Shown here piece after piece: positions 20,713 through 64,000 of a stretch of 64,000 bases of DNA. A program made the position numbers and the translations under genes. Origin of the DNA: Raphanus sativus (taxonomy: Eukaryota; Streptophyta; Magnoliopsida; Brassicales; Brassicaceae). A model generated the notes under the pieces. The model made no database searches, was not told the origin of the DNA, and saw only the letters and a program-made list of their open reading frames with translations. The stretch's first letter is position 1; every line of letters begins with the position of its first letter. The stretch spans positions 5,828,001 to 5,892,000 of the forward strand of contig NC_079516.1 of assembly GCF_000801105.2 (NCBI RefSeq), in the 5' to 3' direction.

Positions 20713-20759
20713 TTTTATCGTAGATGTAAATTTATTGATATAGTTTTGCGGATATTTTT

Positions 20760-21315: not shown

Positions 21316-21333
21316 AAGATAGAGTTTAATCAA

Positions 21334-21596: not shown

Positions 21597-21614
21597 AAGA
21601 TAGAGTTTAATCAA

Positions 21615-21942
21615 TCACCATATAATCATATGTTTATCTAGTCAAACACATCCAACAACACTAAGAAAGAGTCAAAGACAATAAAGGCTAGCTAGCATAC
21701 GAAAAAATCTTTTTCATCGCCGTGGTAATATCTTTGATACGGATCAAGGACATCTACCTACTGGGGGTGATCAGGCTTTACCCCTGTTGGAACCCATATG
21801 AGGGGGAGCACTTCCTTCTGTGGGCCCTAACAAGGCGTCGTTGTCTTTTTCTACGTCAAGTAAGAGGATTGCCTTATACGGGTCTTTTTCCGAAAGAGGT
21901 TAGTTGCCTTCTACTGATATTTGACCGAAAGAAGTATCGTAC
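21615..21942 (+). promoter_or_regulatory. Distal promoter module of array copy 3
   Basis: AATCATATGTTTATCTAGTC, GACAATAAAGGCTAG and the GACCGAAAGAAGTAT end match 26062-26380 upstream of array copy 4. In copy 3 the module is separated from the gene by an insertion of about 2.3 kb. Confidence 0.4.
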
Positions 21943-24213
21943 TATATATTAAATGATTTTTTTTATGTGTCGATCATAGATGAACTCTTAAAAAATTGTT
22001 ATAATTTGATTGGTCGATGATTTTTAATTTTTATTTATTTTAATTAGATCTCAAAAGAAAAAATAAATCTATAACCAATTAATATTACTTGCCAAATAAT
22101 CTACATAATATTACAAATAATTATTTATGGTAATTAATTTTTGAAATTGTAGAAAGAGTATTAATGTTGATCAATTTTTATATTTATAAAATACATAAAA
22201 TAATAAATGAAAAATAATTTATATAAATCGATATAATGATTTTATATTCTTATTTAAAACATTATATTTGTATATAAATTATTATAATAACTATTAATGT
22301 CTTTTAATTTCATATATTCTTTACAAATCATTTATAAAAATTATAAATACATTTATAAAATTGTTTATCTTGGCTTATCATATATTTAAAATTATTATAA
22401 GAAGTTGTGAGTCATTTATATAAGCTTATAAATTATTTTATAAAATATATTTTGAAACATCATCCTACTATCCAACTATATATTAATTGAGAAGTTATTT
22501 AATTTATTTTTGCTTATATGTTGATCGGAGGTGAACTCTTAAAAATTGATATAAGATTGGGATTTTTAATTTTTATTTATTTTAATTAGCTCTAAAAAAA
22601 TTAAGTCTATAACCAATTAATATCATTTGTCAAATAATCTACATAATATTACTATTAATGTTTTATGGTAACTAAGTTTTCAAATTATAGAAAGAGTATT
22701 AATGTTGATCAATTATTATATTTATAAATACATAAAATAACAAACGACAGACAATTTTATATAAATCGATATAATGATTTTATATTCTTATTTAAAACAC
22801 TATATTTGTATATTAATTATTATAATAAATATTACCATCTTATAAGTTCATATATGCTTTACAAATCATTTATAAATTGTTTATCTTGGCTTATCATATA
22901 TTTTAAATTATTATAAGAGGTTGTAAGTCATTTATATAAGCTTATAAATTAATTTATAAAATCTATTTTGAAACCTCATCCTACTATACCACTATCCACT
23001 ATCCACTATATATTAATTGAAAAGTCATTTAAGTGATTTTTGTTTGCGTGTCGATCATAAGTGAATTCTTAAAAATTGTTATATTTTTATTGGTCGATGA
23101 TTTTTAATTTTTATTTATTTTTATTAGATCTAAAAATAAAAGATAGGTCAATAATCAATAAATATCACTTGCAAAATAATATTCATAACATTACAAATAA
23201 TTATTGTTATGGTAGCTAATTACTGAAACTATAGAAATAGTAATAGTGTGATCAATTTTTTATATCCCCTATATACTACATAAAATAATAAACAAAAAAT
23301 GTTTATTAGAATTTATATTATGCTTTTATTTTCATATATAAAGCCTTATATTTGTATATAAAGTATTACAAAAACTATTAATGTATAATATAGTTCATAC
23401 ATGTTTTATAAATCATTTATAAAATTATAAATACATTTTAAAAATTATTTATCTTGGCTTATCATTTGTTTTAAATTATTATAAGAGGTTATAAGTCACT
23501 TATACAAGCTTATATATTAATTTATAAAATCTATTTTGAAATTGAATTATATTAAATGAGAACTCACTTAATTTTGCTTAGGTGTCTTTGAGTTTAAGAA
23601 AAATTATTATAATTTGATTTGTTAATGGATTTTCTATTTTTATTTATTTTATGAGTAAGAAAATCAGTTCTAGAATCAATTTTATCAATATCCAAACGAT
23701 CTAAATATATATCATAAAATAATTTATAGCAATTAAATATGAGATTTATATTAAAATGCTCAAAAATCACTTTTAGTAATAAAGTATTTATAAACTATAT
23801 AATATATTTCATAAGTAATTTATAGAATTTATATAGTAGTTTTATATTTTTATGTAATTGGATATGAATATGTAGAGAATGTGTAACAATTATATTGTTT
23901 TAACTTTTAATCTTATTAGAGACATAAAAAATTTAGCTGCAAACTATATATTTTCAAAACTTAAGTAATTTTATTAAAAACTGAATTATGAATATTATAT
24001 ATAATTAATTTTACAAAATTTTAAATACAAATATCAACAGATATTTAAAATAGTCAGATTCATTTTTTTCAAAAAAAAATTTTCTTAGAAAAGTATTTAA
24101 CAAAAACACATATTCAATTTTTTTGATGATAAAAACCTATTTAATTTTCCAAATTATAATAAATATATTGTTACAAAATATTCAAACTCGGAAAATTGCG
24201 GGCATCCACCTTG
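21943..24213 (+). repeat. Tandem array of four ~535-base units inserted in a PMEI promoter
   Basis: Units start with CTATATATTAA(A/T)TGA.AA near 21943, 22476, 23006 and 23547. They share GGTCGATGATTTTTAATTTT, TATCTTGGCTTATCATATAT and TATAAGCTTATA; the fourth is partial and diverged. Against the array copy 4 promoter, where GAAGTAT runs on to ATTTATTGGAAAT, the block is an insertion of about 2.27 kb. It ends near TTGCGGGCATCCACCTTGTAG, which resembles a worn Helitron 3' end. Not coding. Confidence 0.7.
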
Positions 24214-28990: not shown

Positions 28991-31127
28991 ATGAGTAACT
29001 TAACGAAGTTATTCGCAGTTTTCTTGTTCATCCAAATCCAAATAGCCTTGTCTCAATCAAATCTTATACAGCAGCTCTGCAAAAGAAACCGTTATCAACC
29101 CCTATGCGTCTCTACTCTCAATCTTGATCCTAGAAGCAAAACCGCAAATCTCCAAGGTAAGATTATAAATAATATTTTCTGAAAACATATGACTAGATGG
29201 TTATAATCTAAACTATTAAAACTGAAGTACAAAAAGTACTTAACCCTTAGTTTTGCACAATAATTACAATAGAATGCCATTGATCTTAAACTCTGAGTTT
29301 TGATCATTATAACTAACCGAGATTCACGTTTATTTTCTCTACCTTAAACCGAAATTAGACCTATTAATAAATATGTCCTCACATTCAACCACTTGCCTTA
29401 ATTTCTTTCTATCCATTTAATAATACATGTTTTTGGGTACAGAAATTTAGAAAACCTTCATTACAATAATGGACCTTTCTATCAATATTTCAATACCTGC
29501 ATAACAATAGAAAACAAAAACATCGAATTATCAAAAACCATATAATCAAAACATAATTGATCCTGAGGAATGCAAATAATGTCTCGATATCAAATAAGAT
29601 CATAGTTTATATCATTGCATTATATAGACAAATTTTTATGTCATAAAATAAGATCGTACTTTATATTAATACTATTATTATCATATGCAGAATTAAAATC
29701 ATTACTAAACCAACACAATTGAAAATCATGACTACGCAGTTATTAGTTTCCAAAAAAAAAAATTATATTACAATATATATTCTTATATTTAAGCAAATAC
29801 AATATCAATAACTAACAAAATAATTTTTTTGATTTCTATTCTTCCAAATCACGTTACACATTTATTGCTAATCTCAAAATAATTACCTTCCATCATATAT
29901 TCCTATATTTAAGCAATACAATATTTTTTGATATCAGTCAACAACCACAAGATTCCTTATTTGTTCTCATTGCTTGCAAATCACGTAAAAAATCTTATAC
30001 TAATTAACCTTTTTCGATTAACAACTAACAAACAGATGAACAACAAACATCACAGATGAAGAGATCGGTTTCTCCAACCGATGATATACGGGAAACTGAA
30101 AAGTCAGTAAAATGGGCTTATATATTAACAAAATGGGCTTATATATTAACAAAATGGTAGATCGGTTTCAATTTGACACTTTAAGGTCCACAAATGGCCC
30201 AAATATATTTATATAATTACGATTTCTTAATCTAATTACTACAAATATGTATTTGAAATATATATTTGGAGTGACTTTGTAAATTGGTTTTAGAGATGAC
30301 TTTTTTCCTTTTTAACACAATATAAAAGAAATTAAATAATATATAAATCACAAAATTATATGTTTTCTTATTTAAACATAAACAACAAGTTCGTATATTA
30401 TACACTCTATGTTTAGTTTACCAAGCAAAAAACAAAAAAAAAACATTGTAAGAAGAATAAAACCTATTTGTTTAAAAAGGTACACTAAACTAAATAAACA
30501 AGAGACACAATTTTCTAAAAAATCAATAACATATAAAATAATAACATGAATGTTTTTAAAACTATGAAAAACATATAATTACTTCGAATATACATCCGCG
30601 CGGGCGCGCGGGTCAAAAGCTAGTAATTGACTTATAATTCACGTAAACTTTGTCATCATTTAACATCTTACCCCCCAAAAAAAAAGACTGTCATCATCTG
30701 CTATTCCCTCGCGCATATTGCAAGAGTGTACTTATTACTTATATGTTTTAATTTTTTATTTACTTTTCATGCATTAGGGCTGGCGTCGATCTCTATCGAT
30801 GCGACCACAAAGAAAACGAACGATACGTTAACTTATCTCATCTCCGTTATGCCGAGCGGAGGAGTTCGCGCTGATTTTGAGAAGTACGGAACTTGCATTG
30901 ATCAAGACTACGGCTCGTCTGTTGATAGGTATTTGCCGGGGGCTATGGCTAATCTAAAGGCTAAGAACTACTCTGCTGCCATAGCTAATTTGCAAGACGT
31001 TGTGGGGGCATCGACTGATTGTGAGAACCAGTTCGCCGGAAGTTGTCCATTACCGGTGACCCAACATAACAAAGCTGTTCATGATATTGCCGATATGACT
31101 ACTGACATCATCAAAACTTTTGTCTAG
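28991..31127 (+). CDS. PMEI-domain inhibitor, two exons with a Helitron in the intron (array copy 5)
   Basis: Coding exons are 28991..29156 and 30778..31127, giving 171 residues; donor CAAG|GTAAGA, acceptor CATTAG. Coding capacity is intact: signal peptide, LCKRNRYQPLC, EKYGTCIDQDYGSSVDRY, TDCENQFAGSCPLPVTQ, DMTTDIIKTFV. The intron is 1621 bases against 132-208 in its sisters, because a 1417-base Helitron sits inside. The promoter beyond about 75 bases upstream is copia LTR rather than the family module, so expression may follow the LTR. It directly precedes RFC3 tail to tail. Predicted apoplastic inhibitor. Confidence 0.87.
29207..30623 (+). mobile_element. Non-autonomous Helitron in a PMEI intron
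   Basis: It starts TCTAAACTATTAAAACTGAA and ends with hairpin CCGCGCG-GG-CGCGCGG (30596-30611), GGTCAAAAG and CTAG, flanked by A (29206) and T (30624). Removing it restores TTATAATAATTGAC, colinear with introns of the sister genes. No target duplication. The interior is AT-rich with no rolling-circle helicase, so it is an ATREP-like passenger. Confidence 0.93.
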
Positions 31128-31264: not shown

Positions 31265-32565
31265 TCAAACGTTAACTGTTGTTCGTTTTTTTTCTCTTAT
31301 GCCTTTATTTGACTGGTCCTGTCCTTGTTCTTCTTCATCTTCTTCATACACCACCATAACAACATTACCATCATCATCTACTTCATACTCTACATCATCA
31401 CCTTCTTCCTCTTCATCAAACTCTTCTTCCTCCTCCTCATCATCATCATAAAAGTCATCATCCCCGTCCATACTTGCACGAACAGAGTGAAACTCGGGAG
31501 GGGGAGGGCAGTCTTCCGTAATGGCCTCATCACGTTTCATCACGAGATGCCTAATCACCCTCTCATCACTATCCAACATTCCTTTGAACTCGTTCAAGTG
31601 TTTCGCTTCCATCTCAAAGTTCATCAGTATATAGTGTGCGTTCTCTGCCTTCTGTATCTTATACGCCAGTCTACGCATCCCCCAGTCACTAAACCTCCAC
31701 ACTTTCCCCTTCTTCTCCTTCAAGAACTCTGAATACCATCATCAAACAGTCAAACACACAAATCACCGCTGTAACTCAAAGGAGAAAACTTTTTGTTCAC
31801 CTTGAACTTTCTCATTGACGCTTTCAACCTCCTCTGCATGTTTCTCATGAATCAAGTAAACCACCTCATAGTGCCTCACTACAAGAACATTAGGTTACAC
31901 ATCATCAAACCGGTTGAAACAATTAAAAAGTCAGATTAAACCGGGTTTCAAAGAAGAAGAACTTACTCCTTTCTTCATTCAAGTCACTCTGAAGCTGAAG
32001 ATCAAGAAACTCGTATAGCTCCTCTGTTTCAAACAAACAAGTAAGAAACAGAGCTCATGTAGGTATGTTAACAGAGTCCAAGAAAGTCACTTACTTTCTT
32101 CATCATCAGCGAACTCAGGAAGAAGATCACCTTCCTCATCAATCTTCTTCTGAAAAACCCAATTCATATAAACACAAAAAGTACAAAACTTTCAGCATCA
32201 ATGGTCGGACCAGAAACAGAGCACAACAGTAACCAGAAACAGAGCACATCAGTAACCAAAAACAGAGCACAACAGTAACCGTTATTCTCGTGAGCTAAGT
32301 AAGAGAGAAAGGGAACCTCTTTGAGAAGAATGGATTCAGGAAACGGGCCGGTGGCTTCGTCAGGTCTAGCGGAGAAGCTGTGGCTGTCATCTTTCTTGCT
32401 TTTCTTCTTCTTAGCGGCGGCGACGAGCAAAGGAAGAGACTTTGATCCTCTGCGGGCGAGACTAGGTATGAGGTACACGCGGGGAGAGTTGATGAACGAA
32501 TCTCGGCCGTCTATTCTGGGCCTGAGAGATAGTAGAGAGGAAGACGCGTGCAGGAGTGACTCCAT
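31265..32565 (-). CDS. RFC3: Plastid ribosomal protein S6-like protein, five coding exons
   Basis: Minus-strand coding exons are 32317..32565, 32095..32149, 31967..32023, 31801..31878 and 31265..31728, giving 300 residues, all GT-AG. N terminus is a Ser/Arg-rich, acid-poor plastid transit peptide followed by a KKKKSKK cluster. The bS6 domain starts about residue 121 (MRHYEVVYLIHEKHAEEVE) and includes WRFSDWGMRRLAYKIQKAEN and NAHYILMNFE. The C terminus adds a long acidic tail (DDDFYDDDEEEEEEFDEEEE). Family knowledge: S6 binds the small-subunit rRNA with S18. The Arabidopsis relative REGULATOR OF FATTY-ACID COMPOSITION 3 lies between the PMEI cluster and SCPL33, as here. Could be confused with the second plastid S6 paralogue; synteny favours RFC3. 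Confidence 0.9.
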
Positions 32566-33258: not shown

Positions 33259-36335
<3,077 letters not shown>

Positions 36336-41327: not shown

Positions 41328-43500
41328 TACGAATAGGATACTGGTATAAATAAACACTCGCTGACTCGCATATTAATAAACGTATTGATGTTACTAATTT
41401 ATTGCAATATTTTGACCATTTTATGGCTGAGAAGACTGTGATTCTTCCGCACGCCCACAAAGTTTCAATTCCCCACAATCAGACTTTTGATTCCTTAACT
41501 CTGAAAGAACTTTTTGATTTTTTCTGTTTGTTTCATTAACCATTTTACCCATTTTGAAATAATTATTTCAAAACGAAATCCAGATGGAAAATCTTTTGCA
41601 ATAATAAATATATTCAAAACACAACATATACGAATTTTTATAAAATAATTTGTTTAGTAGCATGTTAACTTGAGAAGAAAAATCAAAGCACATGGGTACG
41701 TCACATTTTACAACTTGCAACTAGTGTTGTAGTACTTTTGTGTGTAAGCATGATTCATTTTGGAATTTGAACTAATGTGTTTTCCCATAGAATTGAGGAA
41801 TTCCATTTACCAAGATTCTCTTAATTTGCTCAAATGTTTAGCTAGGAAGCCTAGTTCAGCTGTGCTAAATTACAAAATTAATCAATTATGTAATTTTGTT
41901 TATGTCCGCGTGTTTGGGTCCCGTCGATTTCGGTTCAATTGATTCGCATTTTCGGATTTTTGATGTTATGTTCATGTATTTTACTAATTATCGAGTCAGA
42001 TTCAGTTTGGTTCATTCTGTGTTTTGGTTCGGATCGAATTATAACCAATCTTTGAAATCGTCCAAAATATATTTTAAGGCACAAAATTGACAATTTTTCA
42101 AATTATATAAATTATTTACAAATCTAAATAAAATATTTAGTAAAACTATCTAAATTAACTAAAAGTATTCAAAACAACAAATAAAACAAACTACAAAAAT
42201 AATTTGAATACTCTAAAATATCTAAGTCACTTTAACATATATAAAAACATTAACACATTTAACTAATTTCTGATATCTTTGGATCATAGTTCGGATTCGG
42301 TTCGGTTATAACTAAACTCTAAAGTAGTAAGCTCTTAAGTCTCGTCCGGATATTTTTGTATAACTGTTCGGATCTAGATTATTTTTTTATGTTCGGATTT
42401 AGGTAGGTACTTCGGGTTTAGGATAAAATATCTAGATCTAATTTAATCTATGAAAAACTGATAACGCCGATTAAAAGAAAAAGTAGAAACTGTTAAAAAA
42501 TAAATGACATGTAAAATGAATAGAGTTTGGAGTTTTTATTTGATCTATTGAGTTTTGCTTTTTTTTTTGGTATTAACATTAGTAATATCTTCATAAGTTT
42601 TCCATGATTAAAAAATACTAGAAAAGGGAAGAAAAGAAAAGAGATGCTATAGAAAATCAAAATCAACTTTTGAAGATTTAATTTTAAATATAAACTAGAT
42701 CTCGATCCGTTCAACCGCACACATATTTGTTTTCATTTATTTTTATATAACCATTTTGTTTTCAATTTTATACTGGTATATATTATTATATATATGAGGT
42801 GTGTCTATCAATTTTAAAACATAATAATTTTACGGTATATTTGTTTTTCATTGTATATTCTACCTTTCACATGTATTTGTATATTTTCTATATATATTTT
42901 GGTTTATTATTTTATTTTTGAAATCATAAATATATATAAAGATTGGTAAAATATTGTTGAAGATATTGTAACATTTCACAAAATTAGAAAGTTTTTTAAA
43001 AAATAAACTTTTAGCTAATATCGAGAAAATAATTAAACATTTAGTTTTTGTTTAATTTTTAAAACAAACTATATAGTTGTAAATTTGTTTTCATTGGTTA
43101 AAAGTAGTATAGATTAATCATTGTTAGATAGTGTTGATTTTTTTTTAAATTAAAAAGTTAACATCGAAAATATGTAACTAACTAACATATGGAGATATAC
43201 TATTACAACATTAAATTATTGATATATATTCAATCCAAATCTGCTATCAAGTATATTAATTAGATGATATTATTTATGATATTATGGAAAATAATAGTAT
43301 TTAAGGCGATATCAATTTCGAAAATATAAAAAACCATTTGAGAAGGTTAAAGCAACAATAAATATGTGAGTTTGATTTATATATTTAATAATGTGTTTTA
43401 TTTAATATCAAATGTAATGTGACCAATTTTAGTAGATAGGTCATCTTTTAAAAGAATCACACATAAATAAAAAGTCATGATTTTTCTTTTTAATATATAA
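41328..43500. other. AT-rich spacer with old repeats
   Basis: Contains repeat-like text with GGTTCGGATTCGG..TTCGGATCTAG near 42290-42380. An ACTAGATCTCGATCCG at about 42695 resembles a worn minus-strand Helitron 3' end, but no clear hairpin was found. No gene recognised. Confidence 0.4.
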
Positions 43501-43529
43501 GATTCCCTAAATTAGTATCATTTTTCCTA

Positions 43530-43748
43530 TTAAAAAGGATTAATTGTTTTGAAACAAAAATATGTTACTAATTTAATCGATATTGATGGTTTTAAAACCA
43601 AAGAAACTGGTAGCTCAGAGTCAAAGAGAAGAGGACCAGCTCCGGGCATAACGGTCAGGTATTCGGGCATGCTTATCTCCCGAATACTGCAACAAATGAC
43701 GTTATCAAGTTCACTAAAATAGCTCATTCCGGGCAATGACAACGCCAC
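43530..43748 (-). other. Coding-like patch of unknown identity upstream of TAS3
   Basis: A minus-strand frame reads MALSLPGMSYFSELDNVICC, REISMPEYLTVMPGAGPLLF, DSELPVSLVLKP. It is GC-richer than its neighbourhood, but neither family nor adjoining exons are visible. It lies about 180 bases before the TAS3 leader, so it may instead be promoter sequence that happens to be open. Confidence 0.25.
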
Positions 43749-43762
43749 GATCCCTCACAAAG

Positions 43763-43928
43763 GTCCAGTTGGGCCCGGCCCACGAACGTTACTATTTATT
43801 TATTTATCTTCCTCTCTTTTGCTAAACTCCTTCCCTACCTTCTCCTCCAAATACCTCACCGTTTCTCAAGTCTCTATATCTCTCTGTTTCTACTTCTCTC
43901 TCTGAAAAGAACAGAGAGAATATCTATT
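43763..43928 (+). promoter_or_regulatory. TAS3 promoter and leader
   Basis: TTGGGCCCGGCCCACG at about 43768 combines TGGGCC/GGCCCA site II elements, the kind bound by TCP factors. A CT-rich stretch (43810-43915) typical of plant leaders follows. No clear TATA box. The position of the transcription start is inferred. Confidence 0.5.
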
Positions 43929-44531
43929 ATGGATGAAAAAATGAGGCAGGAGTTTCTTCAAGGTGATATGCATATCATATAACTATATATGTATATATGT
44001 GTGATATATGTCATCATGTGAAGAATTAGGTTTTTTTTTTAGCAAAAAAAAGGAATTAGGGTTTCGTCAGTTCGATGTCCTGTTTGGCCATTGTTTACAT
44101 CTTAAAGATCTTGTACGAACTAAATTATATAATACATAGATGTATATATATGTAGTGTATTATATACATAGACATTATCTATGTATAGATGTATATCAGA
44201 CATATGTATTTATCCATACACACTTTCGCTACCTTCGTTTTTTTTTTCTTTTTGCTAAGTGCTACCTTCGGTTTGTGAAGATAAGTTCTTAGTTATTTGA
44301 TTGCACATATGTTTCAGAGGTAAAAGACATGCTATACATACTCGCTTTCTTATATATATGTGTGTATGTAATTGGATAAACAGATATACATGGTTTGGAC
44401 TTTTACAGCTAATATTGTAAAACGTAATAAGTTCTGTTTTTGTGTGTGTGTCTGCAGGCAACATCAAAAACATTAACATTACCATCTATTGTGAGGAGAC
44501 TACCAGTTTCTCTTCAAAACTCCTTTATTGA
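43929..44531 (+). CDS. Small 35-codon ORF in the TAS3 leader, predicted spliced
   Basis: Exon 43929..43962 (MDEKMRQEFLQ) joined to 44458..44531 gives 35 residues ending CEETTSFSSKLLY and a TGA at 44529-44531. The donor CAAG|GTGATA and acceptor TCTGCAG|GC are good. The stop lies 8 bases before the non-cleaved miR390 site. In Arabidopsis a TAS3 ORF likewise ends just upstream of this site, and ribosome stalling there is reported to promote siRNA production. The peptide itself shows no recognisable domain. Splicing and translation here are inference. Confidence 0.6.
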
Positions 44532-44539
44532 TATACCCC

Positions 44540-44561
44540 GGTGTTATCCCTACCTGAGCTT
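44540..44561 (+). promoter_or_regulatory. 5' miR390 target site, non-cleavable
   Basis: GGTGTTATCCCT-A-CCTGAGCTT pairs with miR390 almost throughout. One unpaired A at 44552 falls between miRNA positions 9 and 10, plus two G-U pairs near the 3' end of the miRNA. A central bulge blocks slicing, the hallmark of the TAS3 upstream site that AGO7 binds without cutting. Confidence 0.93.
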
Positions 44562-44614
44562 TTTTTTTCTTTTTTTTTTTTTTCAACTCTTTTGTTCTAT
44601 TGAATTATTCTATT

Positions 44615-44635
44615 TTCTTGACCTTGTAAGACCTT
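44615..44635 (+). ncRNA. tasiR-ARF, register 5'D8(+)
   Basis: TTCTTGACCTTGTAAGACC plus TT. The conserved tasiR-ARF sequence in perfect phase, eighth 21-mer upstream of the miR390 cut. Directed against ARF2, ARF3 and ARF4 transcripts. Confidence 0.95.
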
Positions 44636-44656
44636 TTCTTGACCTTGTAAGACCCC
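44636..44656 (+). ncRNA. tasiR-ARF, register 5'D7(+)
   Basis: TTCTTGACCTTGTAAGACC plus CC, abutting the D8 unit without a gap. This is the canonical most active tasiR-ARF; it differs from D8 only in the last two bases. Confidence 0.96.
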
Positions 44657-44771
44657 ACCCCCTTTTAAGTATCTCAACCTTCTATCCTTTTAAAGTCTCT
44701 CTACTATCTCTTTTTGGTGTAGAATGTGTATGTATCTCTACTCCTAGTTCATTTGAGTCAGTTTTTCTACC

Positions 44772-44792
44772 TTGTCTATCCCTTCTGAGCTA
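44772..44792 (+). promoter_or_regulatory. 3' miR390 target site, cleaved, sets the 21-nt phase
   Basis: TCTATCCCTTCTGAGCT pairs with miR390 positions 2-17 with one G-U pair at position 9; positions 18-21 are unpaired, as is common at this site. The expected cut lies between 44782 and 44783. Confidence 0.94.
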
Positions 44793-44799
44793 AAGTTTA

Positions 44800-46070
44800 C
44801 ATATTCTTGTTGGTCATTGATGTAAGGTTGATATAAATTCCAAATGAACAACTTAACCTTTTCTTATTTAACTTTTGTTGGTGTTGGTTACATTGTTGTA
44901 ATAAAATTACAGGAGGTGAAAAATGTCTCGCTATCATGGATACTGGCAAAAAGTAATGAATAAGGAAACTGGCAAAAGGAATTATGCCTTTACTCTCTAT
45001 CTTTAAGGCTTTGGACAGGAATTTACTTTTGTTTTATATGTTGTGTTTGTTTGGGTCTGACTGACCCCAAAGGCCAAAGCCGAACCAAAGATCCCTCTTA
45101 TTAAATAATTCATCAGAATCATTTATTGCCTGTTTCTCTCTCACTCGTGACTATGTTGGGCTCTCACTTTCTGTACTAATATCTCTTTTAGAAAAATCCT
45201 ACCTAGCTAAACTTAGTATCTACTTGTGTTTTGACAAATAATCTTTCCTAGTGGTGGTTAAACCGGTTGACGGATGGGTATGTATAGGTTAATAAGTTTT
45301 TTCATAATCCATGGAGATGATCAAGATATGATAACAAATGTTTGTAGCAACGAGTACGCGTTGCTAAATATGAGTACACCTTAAATTTAAGGTTTGACAG
45401 ATGTTTAATGCTATGCTCCATTGCTCCATTTACCGGTTTACCTAGTTGTTAGATTATGCTATTACTTCCTCTCCAATTAAGTAGTCATCATATGAATATA
45501 AATAACGCCAAGTTAATACTTCTTTTAACCAATAGAACGGCCACAAAAATCCATAAAACCTTTTTGATATGTAAAGATCTGATTCTGTATGAAAAAGACT
45601 ACACTTTAATTGGCAAAAAAAACCACCCATAATGATTAGTTTGATGATCTTTAGAAGAGTCAAATAGATAGAAAGGGGCAGGTTTAACTGAGAATAGAGG
45701 AAAAGCTGAATCACCTTTGTGCGTTGTATAAGAGTATAAATGTTGCTTTTTTCTCTTATCTTTTTGCCATTCCTCATAAATACATATCATGTGAAGACTT
45801 ATGATCAGTCTCATATCATAATTGTACATATTTATATCTCGTTTTCAAGAAACAAGATACAAAATATAGAGTTGGTTTGTTGATAGCTTTCATTTCAAAT
45901 CAACTATCCATATATATGTACTTATAATCGATTTTGAGACAATTTGAGATACTAGTCTTAGATTTTGTATATGAATTATAAAAACTCCGATGTAATACTT
46001 ATAACATAACTTTCAAAGAATGTATCTAAGATGAATTATAAACAATTGATATTTGACTATTATCATTATC
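44800..46070. other. TAS3 3' flank and spacer, no gene seen
   Basis: TAS3 transcripts probably end within the first few hundred bases; AATAAA at about 44901 is a candidate polyadenylation signal. The rest is AT-rich spacer without recognised features. Confidence 0.4.
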
Positions 46071-46084
46071 ACACACACACACAC

Positions 46085-46116
<32 letters not shown>
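46070..46116. repeat. Compound (AC)n(TA)n microsatellite
   Basis: About seven AC units followed, after a short break, by a run of about a dozen TA units. Confidence 0.95.
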
Positions 46117-48069
46117 ACTTATTAAGCTATGTAGGACAACAACAACATAATATTCTTCTTGTAGATTTCTTTAAAAAAATTGGGGGTTTAATGATAGAGA
46201 GGTATAACAACAAGGACATTAGGTAAGGGTCACATGATGGCTGCATTTGCCCAACCTATTCACCGTGTTTTTATTTACCACGATCATTAGAATTTTACGG
46301 TTAGGGTTATCTAAATTTGCTGGAAGTTGGGCATGAGCAGACATCACATTAGAAAAATGTCAAAATCATCATTGTTTTTATTCAATAAACACTATAATGA
46401 CATCAGCGAATATAATTAGTGTGTAATGTTGGTAGCACAAAAGGAAAATGGTAGTAGCACATGCATGATATTGATATAACTAAAACAGGTCAGTTAACAT
46501 GTAATTTTTACGGAAATTTGATAAGCTTGATTGAATATGTATTAAGGAAATCGAAAGCTTACAAATCATTAATGCTCTACTATTTGATTATTGAGTAACT
46601 GTACGTAGACAGTAAACCAATTATTCTTCATCTAAATAAATTGGTTTCACTTTGTCAGCGGCCCCTTTAGTTATTATGGTAGTGGGACGGTGGAGAGATT
46701 AATTATACCAAAAGTCTGGTCAAAATCAGTTTCCACACATCAATGCCAATTTTTGTTTTTAACATTGCCATATTCGACTTTAAGAAAATTTCGATACAAC
46801 TTTCTTTATTATTATGTTCAATAATTAAGGTTCCGAATGGTAATATCGGATTGAGCGGTACGGGACAAACAGATTAGATAGCATGGTACAGTTTAACTGG
46901 CAGTTTGTATAAGAAAGATGCATGGTGCGAAAACAACCGTGGTTCATGTTAAAAAGCGGTTCAAGACAAGTATGAATGATAACATCTATAATAATAGCCC
47001 AAGGATAAATAGTATAACTGCGGGATACATATAATATAATATATATATTATATTTTACAAACTAAAAAATCAGTGATACTAATATAATTTTTAAAATATA
47101 AATTTTACTTTAAAAATATTTTATAAAGTTTCAAATATAAAACTTCATATGCTGTTACTAAGATTAATAATATAGTTTATATATTTATAAATATAACTAT
47201 ATTTAGTTTTAAAATAATAAAAAATTAAAAATTTTTATAAGTCGAAATACTAAAATTTTGAATTAGTAGAATACTTTTTATCCAAAATATTAAAAATATT
47301 TGAATTATTATCAACCCCAAAAAACTGTCCGTTTACTCTTTAATATAAATTAACCAAAAAACTAGAATTGAATGGGAACAAAAGGAATTTGTATGCTTGG
47401 ATATAAGCCGGTTTCCTCTTTATTACATGAACTGAATTGAAACATAAATAATCGAAGCGAACCAAACAGAAACCAAACTGAGAAGCTAATTAGCTAAATA
47501 ATACATGTTTGAAATAATATTTTTGAATATTATATAAATATTAATGGTTGAATATGTGTTTTAACTCATAGCAATTAAAAATAATAAAGAACAAATTTAT
47601 ATAATAATGTACCTTAACTACATTTTTATTTTGTTAACTAGACAATACAGATCTAAAATATATTTTTGCATATTATATATACAAATACTAATGGTTGAAT
47701 ATAGGTTTTTTTTATCTTTTTACACCAAAAAATGAAATAAAAATAAAATGCATTTTTTTATAATGGCCTTGAATATATGGTGTAGGATGCAATTGTAAAG
47801 TACAAAAAAACAGAAAATACATTAATTTTAAAAAAATTAAGTGAACAAAAAATTAGTAGTGTAACATAAAATATTGTAGGTAGCAATTATTTGAAATAAA
47901 AAAACAATAGTATAATTATGCATGTGCGTTCCAATATATTCTTTACCATTTATGGTTATGTAATTAATATAATATTTAATTACTAGATAAAACAGATAAA
48001 GAATTATGCGTGAATGGTAACACTATCCCGCACCGCAATGCCACCCGCCTTCTCGCGGTTAAACATTCA
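46117..48069. other. AT-rich spacer, nothing recognised
   Basis: Long A/T stretches from 46980 to 47990. No ORF, RNA gene or transposon terminus was identified. Confidence 0.45.
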
Positions 48070-53617: not shown

Positions 53618-56600
53618 ATGTTCTTCTCGGGCGATCATTCGACTCGAAAGCGAGTCGATTTAGGTGGCCGTAGCACCAAGGAGGGAGATGCTCGCAAGGT
53701 TCTTGAGCAGACCAAGGTTGAGCGCAGCCGTCGTCTCCTACAGAAGCAGCACAACTCCGCCGCCCTCAAAATTCAGGTCCAAAATTCTTCAATTGAGCCT
53801 CTGTATGAGCAATGTAGAACCAAACCAAGCATATGCCTTTAGGATGAATGTCTGAGCTTAAATTTTAACTACTTTTTAATTAGCTTTGAAGTGACTTGTT
53901 CTTTTATGTAGACACACACACACATAGAGACATGTGTGTGTGTCTAAAGATTAAAGCTTTTTCAACGTTTCATGCTAAAGATCAAAGCTTTTTTTTGGGG
54001 CTATAGAGATTCTTTAGAGGTAGAAGAACAATGGCCATTGAGCGGTCCAAGGTGAGGCGTGACTTCTGTGAGACCTATGGGGATATTTGCCCGAATGTTG
54101 TTGATAGGTATTTTTGATACTTTTTTTATCTTTTTTTTTTTGGTCTTAAAATTGTTTACTTATTGTCTTTTGACTCTTTCTACTACTTTTTTTTTTTCTT
54201 TCTCGGCATTCAGGCATTGCTTTGAGCCGGGTTCAAGTTTCCTCCGTCAGTTTCTGTTTTTCTTCAAGGCACAAAACTCGGGGGATTTTGTGATACTTGT
54301 GGAGACGTGTCGTCTACTGCGGAGTTTTGCACACAGCACTGGTATTTTTCAGTATCTATGCAATATGCATGTTTCTTTTGTTCATACATGTTCGGTCAGT
54401 TCGTTGATCAGTGTGCTTTAACGCTCTAGGCAACTCTTTATGTAAGAGGAAGCATGGCCTGAGTCTTCATTTTCCCTAATTAGTTATTAATGGCTTTTGT
54501 ACTCTTGTTGAATATGTTTTATGAGCTGTAAAATTAGAACCTTGTGTGATGAATGTCCCCTTTACCTTAACTTAAATTATCCCGTTTGCTGTTCCCTTAA
54601 GAACAATCTTTCCTCTAGTTTCTTCCTAATAATGTCTGGTTCTTGCTTAATGGTATAAGAACTTCTCATCGTATTACAGGTGACATTCTAAGCCTTTTCT
54701 CTGGCTTGGACTACTCTACTGAGCATAATATGGTGGATTTTAGAGTAAAGAAACTTGCATTTACCTGCATCGATGCTATACATCAAAATAGGTAATAATT
54801 TATTTTGGCCATCTCTCATTTTTACAGCATATCCACGCAAGGGCCCTTCTGGTGTCAAACTATGATCATCTGTTGTTATCTCATGGCATTTCAGTTCTGT
54901 TATTGAATTTTTAGTTTTGCATCCTTATGATTTGGGCAGGGACCTTTTAAGGGATCAGCTCTTAGTTACTCCCGAAGAAGCTAACATTTCAACAGCTATC
55001 TTGATGGATGCAATGTCGTTGTTGCTAGATCCTAAGCTGCCTTGGGTCTGCAAAATAGTTAGTCATCTACAGAAAAGAAACATATTCAAACTGGTCCGAG
55101 AAATTGTGACTACGGCTAAGGTAATCTCCAATGGCTCCCCACGATTATCCACCACCACCTTGTTCTTCTTATTTACCGCACATTTTCGGATTGGTGTTAC
55201 TTAGTTTGCAACCTCTCCTTTTGAAGCAATAATTGTTTGTTGCAGGAAGGCGGAAGAGGTCTGACTATTAACGGCAGCATCCTTTCACTAGAAAGAGTAT
55301 TGGTTCTGGTAGTACCACATGTTGGCCGTGAGCCATGTTGCTGCCCTGTTGTTGATCCACGTTGGAGTTTCTCATCTATGATCCTTACCATACCCTTTAT
55401 ATGGAAGCTCTTCCCAAACTTGAAAGTGGTTAGTTCCTGAACTCATGTTTTTAGTCAGGGATAAACACTAAACGTAACATATTCACTATCATCTTAGGCT
55501 AAAATGATAGCTTGTCTTTTTTTACCTAGTTTATGTTTAACACTGAGCTAAATATCATCTTGCCTGTCAGCATCTATTATTCAAACTTTGGTAAACTCAT
55601 AGTTTCATGGTCCAGGTCTTTGCCAACCCAAGTCTAAGTCAATACTACATTCACCAGATGGCTTTCTGTATCCAAAAGGATACCCATGTTCTCCCAATAG
55701 ATACAAACACAGAATTCCCTGGTTATGCTTGTCTTCTTGGTAATACATTGGAAATTGCAAACGTGGTCTTGTCAAAGCCTGAATGTTCATTGGACATGGT
55801 AGGTATAAATGCAGTTTATTTCTTTATAAAAACATTGTACTCCCACGTCTGTTTGAGTCTAACGCAAGCTTTGTCTTCGTTCTTTATTTTGATCAGGCAA
55901 TTGACATTGCATCAGTTGCAACTTTCTTATTGGAGACACTTCCTGCTGTTAAGTCATCAGAAAGAGAAAGCAGACAGAGTATGGCATTTTTATTCTTTTG
56001 CATGGCAGTGTTTTCTTATTCTTAAGTTCCTTTTCCAATCTGCTCGTAGTATTTCTTCATGAATTTGATCTTATTCTGAAATGGACATGCACTTTTTCTT
56101 GGTTCAGGCTCTTCTGAAGTGGATGATATGTTGATTGACGATGTACAAGAATTAGTCTTGAATAGGACTCTGGAGCAGCAGATAACCACCAATGCTCTAG
56201 ACTCACGTTTTCTTCTTCAGTTAGTATGTACCCATTCCCTGTCATATGAAACCAAATAGAATGTTATTCTTCCTTTGGATCAAGTGATAGCTTTAATTAT
56301 AACCTAATTTATTTTTTTGCCAACTATGCAGACAAATGTTTTGTTCCATCAGGGTTCGGTTGGTACGCAGTCATATGACGAAGATAAAGAAGCACTAGCT
56401 ATTGGCACAGGCAGTTCTTTTCTGTATGCAGCATTCAACACTCTCCCTCTTGAGCGAATAATGACAGTTTTGGCTTATAGAACCGAGCTTGTAGCTGTGT
56501 TGTGGAATTATATGAAACGATGCCATGAAAACCAGAAGTGGTCATCCATGCCTAGTGTCTTAGCTTATCTTCCAACGGATTCTCCGGGTTGGCTATTACC

Positions 56601-59600
56601 TCTGGTCGTCTTTTGTCCTGTTTATAAGTAAGGTTTGCTTGATTTAATATCAAATTTTCTGTAGTATTTACTTGAAGGTCACTCGCTCGTACGAATATTA
56701 AATAAATGAGGGTGGTTAAATACTTAAATTTGTTTTAACATTGTTGTCACTGATCAGGCATATGCTTACGATAGTCGACAATGAGGAGTTTTACGAACGA
56801 GGAAAGCCACTATCGCTACAAGATATCAGGTTGCTCATCATCATTCTCAAGCAAGTAAGTTTTCCTTAGACGGATCCATTAAGTAGTCGTGTAACTTTGA
56901 TGCTATGAGTTTTAGGAGATACGAAGACACTTGCATAAAATTTAAACACGCTATAAAAGTTTAAGACGCAATTACATATGGCCTTAGGTGGCGGTGGTTG
57001 TTCGTTTTTTCTGCCAATCTTTTAATAATAGTTTCTACTGATCTCACCAGAAAAATAGCATCTGATATGCTATGCATTTAATTTTTCCAATTGTTTTTGT
57101 GTATGCTCGTTTATTCCAGGCTTTATGGCAGTTACTATGGGTGAATCCACTTACGCAACATAACTCTGGGAAATCTGTCTCCAACGACCTCTTAAAGAAG
57201 AACTCTGTTGGCTTGATTCAGAACAGGGTTGGGGTTGTAGTTGCTGAGTTACTTTCACAGGTCAGTGTTCACTTTATAGATATTTTTCTCAGTCAGTATA
57301 ACTTGGGGAAGGTAATTGCTCATCTCTTTGTTGATGAAATCTTTCCGCAGTTTCAAGATTGGAACAACCGGCAACAATTCACTTCCTCGAGCGACTTTCA
57401 AGCTGATACTGTGAATGAATATTTTATCACTCAGGTGACGACTACTTCACTTCGACTTTGTTAATTGTGTGGTCTTACTTATCTTGAATGGTTTGGTCTT
57501 AATTTTTCCCTACCATTCTGATATTGTTTTCCTTTCTCCAGGCCATAACGGAAGGTTCAAGAGCCAACTACATACTGATGCAAGCTCCTTTCCTGATTCC
57601 GTTTACAAGCAGAGTCAAAATATTCACAGTGAGTGGTTGTTAGGGCGTGTATATCTGGTGATGGATTGTCATTTGTTGGATTGAGGAACCTAGGTGTGCT
57701 AATTAACGTATACTTGCGTGCGTAATCTCGTTTAATGGGAGAAAATATTTTTTACTTGTCGCTGATTGCTTTGCTGCGGCTGCATTTATTTGCTGAATAT
57801 TATTTGTAGACACAATTAGCAACGGCGAGGCAGACTCATGGACCTGAAGAAATTTTTACTCGAAATCGGTTCAGAATACGAAGAGATCACATCTTGGATG
57901 ATGCTTACAATCAAATGAGTGCATTGTCAGAGGATGAGCTCCGAGGACCAGTAAGTTCTCTCTCTTGCCAGATATTTGTCTTCAAGCAATTGCCTATTCA
58001 CAATGCAAAATGCACATTTTCTTTCCTGTGTCGCTTTAGATTCGTGTGACATTTGTCAATGAACTCGGAGTTGAGGAAGCCGGTATTGATGGTGGTGGCA
58101 TTTTCAAAGACTTTATGGAGAAAATTACCCGAGCAGCCTTTGATGTGCAATATGGGTTGTTTAAGGTCGTATTTCTAGCTCTGCTCACTCAAGTTTTTGT
58201 GGATTTCATAATTTACCACACTTCATCATGTTTGCATGTAATCTATCTGTAATTCTTTATAAAAATCTCCAACATACTTTCTTTCAGGAAACCGCTGATC
58301 ACATGCTTTATCCTAATCCTGGATCAGGAATGATACATAAGCAGCATCTCCAGTTCTTTCATTTTCTCGGCAGTCTTCTCGCAAAAGTATGGTATTTGAT
58401 TGCTGGCCTTAATGTGAAAGTCGTATAAGTCACCAATCTTTCTTTTACTAGTTCTTCTCGCCTAAGTATTCATCATGTAAATAGAATAGTTGGGGTATAA
58501 CTGTTTTGATGCTTTCATATAGATTTTATTTAGTTTGTGATATGCCCTGGAGAGCTTATTATAGGAGAAACAAGAAAGAAGGAAGGAAAGACTCTGAGTG
58601 AAAAAGAAGTTTAGCAGTTACGTTTAATAAAGAGTATAAATACATTGTATTGGGATAGGGGAGAAGTATCACGTAATTGATCATTGTAAAAGTGAGAGAG
58701 AGAGACTCGGAGGTTTACGGTTAGCTCGTGAGAGGCTGTAACCTTCAGATACGTTTACGAGTAATACAAGGAGGAATTGGTTTGGTATCTTAACAAATTG
58801 GTGCGTGTTGACGTTGGGATCGGAGTTTCATCGCGATGTCATCAAGCTTGGAGGAGAAGTTACAGCGAGTCGACGAGCTCAACGACGCCGTCGCCGATTC
58901 GTCGGAACGCGTTGACAAGCTAACGAGGGCGGTGGAGATGATGGTGGAACGACAATCGAAATCAGAGATGCAGCTTCAAACGAATGATCGGACGATGCAA
59001 ACGCTTCAATCAACGATAACAGCGTTGATGTCCATTGTTCGCGATCGTCTTCCGTCGTTCGACGATATCATGACGCCGATCCGAAATCCGGAGAAACAAC
59101 CGGTTCAGGTAAACGCTTCGACCTCGGAACCTGGCCTTACTATTCCGTTGCGCGATTCGTCTGGTTTGGATGCGTTGATGCCAACAGAGAACAGTCAATT
59201 CAAAAAGTTGGAGATGCCGATCTTTGATGGGAAGAATCCGCACGGGTGGATCGCACGAGTCGAACGTTTCTTCCGTCATGGTCAGTATACAGAGACGCAA
59301 AAGATGCAGTTGATATCGATGAGTCTTGATGGAGTGGTTCTGAGTTGGTTCTTGTGGGAGGAGCAGCATACGCCGATGCTCAACTGGACTAATTTCAAGA
59401 AACGTATATTGACGCGATTCGGTAATCCACGCATGCGTTCTCCAAAAGAGAACCTAGCAGCACTGACTCAGACTGGTCCGGTGATCGAGTATGTTCAACA
59501 ATTTGAAGAACTGGCTTCTCAAGTGACGGGAGTTGATGATGAGATGTTGGAAGCAATCTTTAAGGGAGGTCTTAAACCAGAGCTTCAGGAGATCCTTCGA

Positions 59601-62600
59601 ATGAAAGAACCTCGTGATCTTTCTCACATGATCGCGACAGTTCTTGAGATGGAAGATGGACTGTTGTGTCAAGCGATGGTGCCAATTCGGGGTGCAGAGC
59701 AGAAAAATCAAAAGTCTACGCCGTATAATTCGTCTCGTTCTGTTACACACTCGACAGGTAACAGTACTTGGCGAACTAGACCGGTCTCTTTGCCTTCGGA
59801 GAAGACACCGAGTTCCACTGAGAAGACACAATCGGTAACCAACACGTCTACTGTGGGAACCTTGAGACGCCAATTATCACCAGCAGAGTATGAGTATAGG
59901 AGGAAGAATAGACTTTGTTATAAATGTGATGAGCGCCATACATTTGGACAGACGTGTCCCAATAAACATTTACAAGTCTTAACAGTAGTGGATGGTTGTG
60001 ATGTGGAGTTAGTAGAAGAGGAGCTGGTTGATACGTTTCAAGATGAGAATGGTCGTGTGACGGAGCTGATGGCATTATCTCTTAATGCGTTTTTGGGTAT
60101 GCCTTCACTCACTACCACTAAGCTGCGAGGTGAATTGGGAAGAACAACAGTGATAGTGATGTTGGATAGTGGAGCTACTCATAACTTTATTTCTCCTGAT
60201 GTGGTGAAACGTGCTCGCTTGAGGAGGATAGAACATCAGAATTTGGAGATTCGTTTGGGCACCGGAGTAAGAGTTGCTGGTCTTGGTGTGTGTCCTCAAG
60301 TCTCTTTCGCTGTGGCTGGTGTGGAGTTCACGACAGACTTCATAGAGTTGGAGTTGGGAAATGCAGATGTGATCCTAGGAGTGCACTGGTTGCGCACTTT
60401 GGGTACATGTGCAATGAACTGGGAGACTCATGAACTGTCATTCAACTATCAAGGACGCCGAATTACGTTCTGTGGAGATTCTTCGTTGCAATCCACGAAG
60501 TTGTCTCTGGAAACTCTAACTCCAACGCCAGTGTCCTCTCCAGTTATCGAAGAAGCTAAACAGCCTGTTCCTGAGATCATTACTTCAGTTTTGGATCAGT
60601 TTCAGGATGTTTTTGCTATACCAACGCAACTACCTCCGATTAGGAACAGAGAACACTCAATCACGCTCATGCCGGGTACTGGTCCTATCAATGTTCGACC
60701 TTACCGGTATCCTCATGCGCAGAAAGAAGAGATGGAGAGACAAGTGCAGAAGATGTTAACCGATGGGATCATTAGGCCAAGTAAAAGTCCTTACTCGAGC
60801 CCGGTTCTATTGGTTAAAAAGAAAGATGGCGCATGGAGATTTTGCGTAGATTACAGAGCCGTAAACAGAGCAACAGTTGCTGATCGTTTTCCGATACCTG
60901 TCATTGACCAGCTACTGGATGAGCTCCATGGCGCTGTGGTATTTTCAAAGCTGGATCTCCGTTCGGGTTATCATCAGATTCGAATGGTTGACAAAGATAT
61001 TGAGAAGACCGCCTTTAGGACGCATGATGGGCATTATGAGTTCCTTGTAATGCCATTTGGTCTCTCCAATGCTCCTGCCACATTTCAGGCGTTGATGAAC
61101 GAGCTTTTCAGACCATATCTTCGGAAATTTGTACTCATCTTCTTTGATGATCTGTTGATTTACAGTCCTACGGTGGAGTTACATGCGCAGCATTTGAAGA
61201 TTGTCTTGGAGATTTTCAGGCAACATGTACTCTATGCAAATGAGAAGAAGTGTTCTTTTGGACTAAAGAGGATTGAGTATCTCGGCCATGTCATTTCTCA
61301 GGAAGGCGTCGCAACTGATACGGCAAAGACAGCTGCGATGACTAGTTGGCCAGTACCGAAGAACGTTAAGGGGTTGCGAGGATTTCTGGGACTCACGGGC
61401 TATTACCGTAACTTTGTTAAAGACTATGGTACCATTGCTCGTCCGTTGACGTCCCTCTTGAAGAAGGATCAATTCGCTTGGTCTCATTCAGCTCAGCTTG
61501 CATTTGATAAATTGGTTCAAGCTATGGTTCATGCACCGGTTCTTTCTTTGCCAGACTTTAATGAGACGTTCATCATTGAGTCAGATGCTTCTGGAACAGG
61601 CTTGGGGGCAGTATTGATGCAGAAGAAGAACCCCATAGCCTACTTCAGTCACGGGCTAACAGAGAAAGAGCAGCTCAAACCAATCTATGAGCGAGAGTTA
61701 ATGGCTATCGTGCTAGCTATACGACGTTGGAGACATTATCTTTTGGGGAAGAAATTCATTGTTCGAACTGATCAAAAGAGCTTGAAATTTCTGTTGGAGC
61801 AGAGAGAAGTTAACTTGGAGTATCAGAAATGGCTACATAAGCTTCTTGGTTACGAATTCGACATTGTCTATAAACCAGGAGTTGAAAACAAGGCGGCTGA
61901 TGGGTTGTCTCGGATTTCTCATGCGACTTTTGATTCTTTGATGCGTCTTACAGTTCCTAAACCACTACAGATGGAAGATATCTTGAAGGAAGTGGACAAC
62001 TGTGAGTTTATTCAGCGATTGTTGCAGAACTTGCATGAGGAGAAGCCTGTGAAAGTGGGCTATTCTGTGGTTGATGGTCGGCTGTTGTACAAGCAGCGTT
62101 TGGTGATACCGGCAGATTCGAAGCACATATCATTAATACTGGAGGAGTTCCATGGCAGTAAATGGGGAGGTCACACAGGCATGTTAAAGACGATCAAGCG
62201 CATTCAAGCTTACTTTTATTGGCCAGGGATGAAACAGGTCATTCAACAGTATGTTGCGGAATGTCAGACATGTCAGACCTGCAAATATTCGACTCTATCT
62301 CCTGCTGGCTTACTCCAACCCTTACCTATACCAGAGAATGTGTGGGATGATATCTCCATGGATTTCATCGAAGGACTCCCTACTTCTCATGGTGTGAACG
62401 TTATTTTGGTAGTGGTGGACCGTTTATCGAAGTATGGGCATTTTCTGGCACTGAAACACCCTTTTTCTGCAGTTGATGTAGCTTCGAAATTCATGGCAGA
62501 AGTAGTCAAATTGCATGGCTTTCCGAGAAGCATCGTTTCAGACCGAGATAAAGTTTTTCAGAGTTCTTTTTGGAAGGAGTTGTTCAAACTTTCGGGTACT

Positions 62601-64000
62601 AAGCTTAAGTTCAGCACTGCCTATCACCCTCAAACAGATGGGCAGACTGAAGTGCTCAACCGATGTTTGGAAACCTACCTTCGCTGCTTCACCTCTACTC
62701 ATCCGCGTCGCTGGTTCAGCTTCTTGAGTTGGGCAGAGCTGTCCTACAACACCTCTTATCACACTGCTATCAAGACAACACCGTTTGAGTTAGTGTATGG
62801 GCGTTCTCCTCCTTCACTGTTGAAGTTTGAAAAGGGAACAACAGTGAATGCTGATCTTGAAGCGCTGTTGAAGGAAAGGGATTCGATGTTATTATCTGCT
62901 AAGTATCATTTGTTGAGGGCGAAGGATAGTATGAAGATTGTTGCTGATAAGAGTCGTCGTGATCTGTCGTTTGAAGTGGGTCAGATGGTTTTTCTCAAGC
63001 TCAGGCCTTATCGTCAATCATCAGTGTCGAAGCGCCTTTGTCAGAAGTTATCAGCTCGTTTCTATGGTCCGTTTGAAGTTCTGGAGCGGATAGGCGCGGT
63101 GGCTTATCGCCTTAAGCTTCCAGAGGGTTCTCGTATTCATCCGGTATTCCACATTTCTCAGTTGAAGCAGGTGCGAGGCAGCTCGGTGGAGGTTCAAGAA
63201 CTTCCTTCGGCTCTATCGAGAGATGATGAGTTTGTTGTGGAACCAGACGAGATTGTGGATACTCGCTATACTGAAGATGGCCATTTGGAGGTGTTGATCA
63301 CGTGGAAGGGTTTACCGACACATGAGAGTTCGTGGTTGCTGGTACGAGAAGTGAAGCATCAGTTTCCCTCTTTCCAGCTTGAGGGCAAGCTGAATCTTGG
63401 GAAAGGGGGTATTGATATGCCCTGGAGAGCTTATTATAGGAGAAACAAGAAAGAAGGAAGGAAAGACTCTGAGTGAAAAAGAAGTTTAGCAGTTACGTTT
63501 AATAAAGAGTATAAATACATTGTATTGGGATAGGGGAGAAGTATCACGTAATTGATCATTGTAAAAGTGAGAGAGAGAGACTCGGAGGTTTACGGTTAGC
63601 TCGTGAGAGGCTGTAACCTTCAGATACGTTTACGAGTAATACAAGGAGGAATTGGTTTGGTATCTTAACAGTTTGGCCTTTTCTTTTCTCTCTATTGAAG
63701 TTGAATTGCAACTGTTCTATAGGACTCATGAAATGTTTTTACCTCTATCTTGTTGCAGGCTATGTTTGAAGGGATTCTAGTTGATATACCATTTGCAACG
63801 TTTTTCCTCAGTAAATTGAAGCAAAAGTACTATAAATTTGATTTCTACCTTCAACTTCCTGTCAATTCATTTGTTTGTTATCCCGTGTAGACCTTGTGAA
63901 TATGTCGTAAACCTTCTATTTTTCTGTGGCTAGGTACAACTATTTGAACGATTTGCCCTCTCTGGATCCTGAGTTGTATAGGCATCTTATATTTCTGAAG
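53618..64000 (+). CDS. UPL6: HECT-type E3 ubiquitin ligase, 19 coding exons, 3' end outside the window
   Basis: Coding exons: 53618..53776, 54007..54107, 54214..54341, 54680..54791, 54940..55120, 55246..55428, 55616..55798, 55897..55978, 56108..56223, 56332..56627, 56758..56854, 57120..57260, 57351..57434, 57542..57628, 57810..57950, 58040..58165, 58288..58386, 63759..63826, 63934..64000+. All are GT-AG and in frame: 817 residues of a family about 1030 long. Near residue 50 is an IQ motif (ALKIQRFFRGRRTM). The HECT domain begins about exon 14 and includes VTFVNELGVEEAGIDGGGIF with its conserved D-GG and KDFMEKIT; the catalytic Cys lies beyond the window. Role: thioester transfer of ubiquitin, UBE3B/UBE3C-like. 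Intron 17 is 5.4 kb because of a gypsy insertion in the same orientation. Confidence 0.95.
58538..58795 (+). repeat. 5' LTR of the gypsy element
   Basis: 258 bases, TG...CA ends. Contains GAGTATAAATACATTG near 58632, a probable TATA box for element transcription. Confidence 0.95.
58836..63476 (+). CDS. Gypsy gag-pol polyprotein with chromodomain, intact
   Basis: 1546 codons without a stop. Order: coiled-coil N terminus; Gag (from about residue 123, LEMPIFDGKNPHGWIARVER); CCHC knuckle at about 359 (CYKCDERHTFGQTC); aspartic protease at about 442 (MLDSGATHNFI); reverse transcriptase about 610-800 with LIFFDDLLIYS; RNase H at about 913 (ESDASGTGLGAVLMQ); integrase with HHCC zinc finger (H..H, then CQTCQTCK, about 1105-1150) and catalytic core beginning DDISMDFIEGLP at about 1170; chromodomain about 1466-1520 (DTRYTEDGHLEVLITWKGLP). 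The protease-to-integrase order is gypsy type. The last 21 codons lie within the 3' LTR. All catalytic motifs look undamaged, so it may be autonomous. Confidence 0.95.
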   Translation: MSSSLEEKLQRVDELNDAVADSSERVDKLTRAVEMMVERQSKSEMQLQTNDRTMQTLQSTITALMSIVRDRLPSFDDIMTPIRNPEKQPVQVNASTSEPGLTIPLRDSSGLDALMPTENSQFKKLEMPIFDGKNPHGWIARVERFFRHGQYTETQKMQLISMSLDGVVLSWFLWEEQHTPMLNWTNFKKRILTRFGNPRMRSPKENLAALTQTGPVIEYVQQFEELASQVTGVDDEMLEAIFKGGLKPELQEILRMKEPRDLSHMIATVLEMEDGLLCQAMVPIRGAEQKNQKSTPYNSSRSVTHSTGNSTWRTRPVSLPSEKTPSSTEKTQSVTNTSTVGTLRRQLSPAEYEYRRKNRLCYKCDERHTFGQTCPNKHLQVLTVVDGCDVELVEEELVDTFQDENGRVTELMALSLNAFLGMPSLTTTKLRGELGRTTVIVMLDSGATHNFISPDVVKRARLRRIEHQNLEIRLGTGVRVAGLGVCPQVSFAVAGVEFTTDFIELELGNADVILGVHWLRTLGTCAMNWETHELSFNYQGRRITFCGDSSLQSTKLSLETLTPTPVSSPVIEEAKQPVPEIITSVLDQFQDVFAIPTQLPPIRNREHSITLMPGTGPINVRPYRYPHAQKEEMERQVQKMLTDGIIRPSKSPYSSPVLLVKKKDGAWRFCVDYRAVNRATVADRFPIPVIDQLLDELHGAVVFSKLDLRSGYHQIRMVDKDIEKTAFRTHDGHYEFLVMPFGLSNAPATFQALMNELFRPYLRKFVLIFFDDLLIYSPTVELHAQHLKIVLEIFRQHVLYANEKKCSFGLKRIEYLGHVISQEGVATDTAKTAAMTSWPVPKNVKGLRGFLGLTGYYRNFVKDYGTIARPLTSLLKKDQFAWSHSAQLAFDKLVQAMVHAPVLSLPDFNETFIIESDASGTGLGAVLMQKKNPIAYFSHGLTEKEQLKPIYERELMAIVLAIRRWRHYLLGKKFIVRTDQKSLKFLLEQREVNLEYQKWLHKLLGYEFDIVYKPGVENKAADGLSRISHATFDSLMRLTVPKPLQMEDILKEVDNCEFIQRLLQNLHEEKPVKVGYSVVDGRLLYKQRLVIPADSKHISLILEEFHGSKWGGHTGMLKTIKRIQAYFYWPGMKQVIQQYVAECQTCQTCKYSTLSPAGLLQPLPIPENVWDDISMDFIEGLPTSHGVNVILVVVDRLSKYGHFLALKHPFSAVDVASKFMAEVVKLHGFPRSIVSDRDKVFQSSFWKELFKLSGTKLKFSTAYHPQTDGQTEVLNRCLETYLRCFTSTHPRRWFSFLSWAELSYNTSYHTAIKTTPFELVYGRSPPSLLKFEKGTTVNADLEALLKERDSMLLSAKYHLLRAKDSMKIVADKSRRDLSFEVGQMVFLKLRPYRQSSVSKRLCQKLSARFYGPFEVLERIGAVAYRLKLPEGSRIHPVFHISQLKQVRGSSVEVQELPSALSRDDEFVVEPDEIVDTRYTEDGHLEVLITWKGLPTHESSWLLVREVKHQFPSFQLEGKLNLGKGGIDMPWRAYYRRNKKEGRKDSE
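63413..63670 (+). repeat. 3' LTR of the gypsy element
   Basis: Reads identical to the 5' LTR. Its first 64 bases also encode the end of gag-pol, stop at 63474-63476. Confidence 0.95.

Follow-up and report, generated by a model that had tools for sequence, protein, structure and literature searches.

A probable TAS3a locus of radish with two miR390 sites flanking tandem tasiR-ARF units

Positions 44540..44792 of the 64,000-nt stretch of DNA analysed here (the window), taken together with the genes around them, very probably represent the TAS3a gene of radish or of a very close relative, on which the standard miR390/tasiR-ARF pathway would act. Two miR390-complementary sites lie on one strand (+) and flank both tasiR-ARF units, which are in 21-nt phase with the cut predicted at the 3' site. 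These elements, their register and the neighbouring genes are read directly from the DNA. The TAS3 identity, the assignment of the units to phases D7 and D8 and a two-hit layout are supported as predictions from sequence.

44540..44561, + strand: 5' miR390 site, bulged at its centre (A44552), predicted to be uncut (script scan, duplex energy, simulation)
44615..44635, + strand: tasiR-ARF unit, phase 5'D8(+) (script scan, phase count, published D8)
44636..44656, + strand: tasiR-ARF unit, phase 5'D7(+) (script scan, phase count, published D7)
44772..44792, + strand: 3' miR390 site, with cleavage predicted at 44782/44783 (script scan, duplex energy, simulation)

miR390 sites and phased tasiR-ARF units

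For pairing and scoring we used the known miR390 sequence. At the 5' site, every one of its 21 positions finds a partner, 19 through standard pairs and two through G:U. An additional A at 44552, inserted where the partners of positions 9 and 10 would otherwise adjoin, disrupts the centre of the site. The duplex energy is -36.6 kcal/mol, compared with -44.3 for a perfect miR390 partner, and the plant target score is 3.0. A hypothetical cut opposite positions 10/11 would fall 232 nt from the 3' cut, which is, by arithmetic, eleven 21-nt cycles plus one base. The Arabidopsis 5' sites are described in PMC12127299 as mismatched to miR390 at positions 9-11 and uncut; the non-cleavage predicted for the radish site fits this description, since its bulge at 9/10 lies within those positions.

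At the 3' site, pairing extends from position 2 to position 17 and includes a G:U at position 9; position 1 is mismatched and positions 18-21 pair poorly; the duplex contains no bulge and has an energy of -30.2 kcal/mol. By score this is a middling match, unconvincing in isolation: its 6.0 is barely better than the 6.5 (at 32131) and 7.0 (at 31510) of unrelated sites on the - strand. The site counts because of its position and register rather than its score, positions 10 and 11 being predicted to pair and the resulting cut fitting the phase of the tasiR-ARFs.

In a duplex energy scan with 26-nt windows taken every 2 nt, the two sites are the top two places on the + strand, and the best value on the - strand is -24.6 kcal/mol. 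Among 200 simulated windows (first-order Markov, scanned on the + strand only), an ungapped miR390 site with a score of at worst 6 occurred in 2, a bulged one with a score of at worst 3 in none, and a correctly arranged pair likewise in none. The last result argues against a chance likeness, which, together with the possibility of a coding sequence that resembles TAS3, we regard as extremely improbable. On the coding side, the + strand frame at 44431-44793 is free of stops and open for 120 codons, and an acceptor AG ending at 44431 would let an ATG at 43929 read into it; against this, the frame has no ATG of its own and is rich in F, S and L runs.

The two tasiR-ARF units abut, and the first 19 letters are common to both 21-mers. 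Across the 64,000 nt, the script found the 12-mer tasiR-ARF core twice on the + strand, both times within these units, and nowhere on the - strand. Relative to the predicted cut at 44782/44783 their ends fall precisely on the 21-nt grid: since 44656 and 44635 sit 6 and 7 steps back from 44782, we assign 44636-44656 to D7 and 44615-44635 to D8. As the units are in tandem, 21 nt apart, the agreement in register weighs as a single coincidence (1 in 21).

The initial annotation had claimed each of these elements, and all were recovered. Direct reading and the script placed the abutting units exactly at the claimed positions, and the step count returned the claimed 5'D8/5'D7 register without deviation. 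The upstream site with its central bulge was borne out by pairing and duplex energy, and the unbulged downstream site and its predicted cut lie where they had been placed.

The D7 unit is identical to atTAS3a-5-D7 of Arabidopsis as printed in Table 2 of PMC5614533. The D7 and D8 of cotton are printed in PMC3338460, where they are called identical to those of Arabidopsis, and the D8 unit of the window equals that D8 in 20 of 21 letters, differing only at position 17 (A here, G there). In rapeseed, bnTAS3a/b-5-D7 shares the tasiR-ARF core with the window and is printed with a start one base earlier than the Arabidopsis-register D7, which would correspond to 44635-44655 here; the same Table 2 of PMC5614533 includes the Arabidopsis-register D7 as well. 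Because of this one-base shift in print for B. napus, the exact register of the radish small RNAs is a prediction.

From the known TAS3 pathway, we infer how the radish gene would be transcribed, loaded, cut and diced, and what it would target. Its transcript would be capped and polyadenylated, and miR390-loaded AGO7 would bind both sites, the bulged 5' site being bound and left uncut and the 3' site being cut at 44782/44783. The 5' fragment would then be made double-stranded by RDR6 and SGS3, and DCL4 would dice the duplex in 21-nt steps, starting at the cut end. The products of phases 7 and 8 would be the tasiR-ARFs, expected to cut ARF2/3/4-type messages.

Neighbouring genes and relation to known TAS3 loci

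Protein comparison identified three genes around the locus.

31265..32565, - strand: RFC3 (plastid S6-like protein)
33262..36335, - strand: SCPL33 (serine carboxypeptidase-like)
53618..64000, + strand: UPL6 (HECT ubiquitin ligase), continuing beyond the window

The five - strand exons of RFC3 encode a 300-aa protein with 100% identity to one from Raphanus sativus (P0001), with a second radish match at 99% (P0002). A rough join of UPL6 exons, with parts left out, has radish UPL6 as its best match (P0241, 92%; single stretches reach 100%) and a second radish match at 88% (P0242); three UPL6 fragments scanned singly hit no Pfam family. By these protein identities, radish is almost certainly the source of the window. 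For SCPL33, the best among the matches listed is from B. rapa (90%). No radish SCPL33 is named among those matches; each of them stands for a cluster formed at 90% identity, and one of the clusters may contain a radish copy. The Arabidopsis thaliana relatives are at 79% for RFC3 (P0015), 81% for SCPL33 (P0124) and 68% for UPL6 (P0261, an unnamed product in the source), and the alignments of these Arabidopsis proteins give, along the window, the succession RFC3 (-), SCPL33 (-), TAS3a locus (+), UPL6 (+).

The order around At3g17185 in Arabidopsis is likewise RFC3, SCPL33, UPL6; these neighbours are common to both species, and they fit a TAS3a locus. The TAS3 identity put forward by the initial annotation is upheld by the sequence, and the neighbouring genes narrow it to TAS3a, as opposed to TAS3b or TAS3c. 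A tandem arrangement of tasiR-ARFs is also a mark of TAS3a. An orthologue of TAS3b or TAS3c is a very unlikely reading: it can draw on the miR390 sites, which are common to all three TAS3 genes according to PMC12127299 and PMC5207768, but RFC3, SCPL33 and UPL6 speak for TAS3a.

The TAS3a assignment leaves room for a copy that is silent or works weakly, one of several, having lost expression or efficient cutting. Radish descends from a whole-genome triplication, and the 3' site, with its G:U at miR390 position 9, its mismatch at position 1 and its score of 6.0, could be taken as a sign of such decay. However, both 21-mers, both miR390 sites and their exact spacing are retained, all of which drift would break in time, and the neighbouring genes are retained too. 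We therefore consider a decayed copy unlikely, and a working TAS3a gene the better reading. The overlap between these two readings, along with the 6.5 scored by the - strand control site, slightly reduces our confidence in the latter.

Radish TAS3a is an ordinary, conserved gene, a further case of a well-known class of plant RNA genes. It resembles TAS3a of Arabidopsis thaliana (At3g17185) in its two miR390 sites, in a 5' site of the uncut type and in tasiR-ARFs at D7 and D8. PMC3840582 describes a Brassica oleracea homologue for which D7(+) reads exist and whose contig has 77% similarity to At3g17185; compared by that description, it is a Brassicaceae TAS3a with D7(+), like the radish locus. 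Given the wide conservation of TAS3, and with TAS3a small RNAs already in print for Brassica oleracea and B. napus, the locus is less surprising than the initial annotation implied. Among the titles turned up by an open-licence literature search, none named a radish TAS3 locus, which is a weak negative.

A search of the whole 64,000-nt window against Rfam at gathering scores gave no matches, a result that would bear on TAS3 only if Rfam includes such a family. At a relaxed threshold, the region 42000-47000 returned a pair of hits within 44138-44215; their E values of about 3 and scores well under the cut-off lead us to dismiss them as chance. A plant RNA gene such as TAS3a could nonetheless be read from the raw sequence. 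A search of viral contigs for the tandem tasiR-ARF unit found none, a result that is uninformative for a plant gene. TAS3 tasiRNAs affect leaf form, phase change, flowers and roots via ARF genes, according to PMC6572396. With a mapped radish copy of TAS3a, root-crop researchers could test tasiRNA effects on leaf form, phase, flowers and roots directly.

A possible short ORF and possible introns

Upstream of the 5' miR390 site, the following candidate features were noted.

43793..43807, + strand: TATTTAT runs, a possible TATA region some 120 nt upstream of the first ATG, weakly suggested by motif positions
43929..43962, + strand: possible first-exon portion of a short ORF, from the ATG at 43929 up to the GT donor at 43963 (prediction; one of four combinations tried)
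43963..44457, + strand: possible 495-nt intron, GTGATATG...TGTCTGCAG (prediction)
44458..44531, + strand: possible second-exon portion of that ORF, which would total 35 aa, with TGA at 44529-44531 (prediction)

The TGA at 44529-44531 is the only stop, in any frame, within the 40 nt upstream of the 5' miR390 site, from which it is separated by 8 nt, and no ATG opens its frame in the unspliced strand. We joined the ATG at 43929 across GT donors and AG acceptors in four combinations. GT 43963 with AG 44457 yields 35 aa ending at 44531, and GT 43952 with AG 44431 yields 40 aa ending at the same stop. Another combination meets a stop already at 44476, and the fourth, with the acceptor at 44431, reads on past both tasiR-ARFs; it was translated as far as 44700, and its frame stays open to 44793. 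The acceptor at 44457 was preferred for its pyrimidine-rich lead, judged by eye.

PMC6572396 and PMC5207768 describe the two-hit model, the presence of short ORFs ahead of the siRNA region, and the stalling of ribosomes by AGO7 at the miR390 site. The 35-aa radish ORF, if spliced, would match this layout as known from Arabidopsis, where ribosomes stall at that site. It is tempting to speculate, though we consider it rather unlikely, that a short ORF upstream of the 5' site comes into being only through the splicing out of about 495 nt. Since the ORF would be present only after removal of the intron, splicing would decide whether ribosomes stall beside AGO7-miR390, and could thereby tune the output of tasiR-ARFs.

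Several points argue against such a spliced ORF. Short frames occur by chance, and ours was picked from four combinations. According to PMC12127299, ribosomes bind nucleotides 78-581 of Arabidopsis TAS3a; counted from the Arabidopsis transcript start, the bound region would be largely intron if both genes shared one layout. Among the literature titles found, none directly addressed whether TAS3a has an intron or a short ORF. On the far side of the 3' miR390 site, downstream of it, GTAAGG ... TTACAG at 44821-44911, seen by eye, could mark a second transcript intron of 91 nt.

Other features of the window

Within an intron of UPL6, at 58538-63670, lies what appears to be a very young LTR retrotransposon, beyond which the UPL6 exons resume. 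Its terminal repeats of 258 nt show 0 differences (264 nt at 99% when untrimmed), it is bordered by a 5-bp target duplication, GTTTG, and it contains one open frame, 1554 codons long. Judged by the appearance of its protein, the element would be of the Ty3/gypsy type.

A cluster of pectin methylesterase/invertase inhibitor (PMEI)-like frames, several of them alike by eye, occupies both strands of 7582-31127. In a Pfam scan of two of these frames, 7582-8217 matched PMEI above the cut-off and 30627-31127 below it. The frames that are alike by eye are the following.

18100, 24836, 27721 and 30627, + strand: PMEI-like frames
9058 and 11616, - strand: PMEI-like frames

The block at 20001-24000 has a G+C content of only 21%, the lowest among the 16 blocks of the window.
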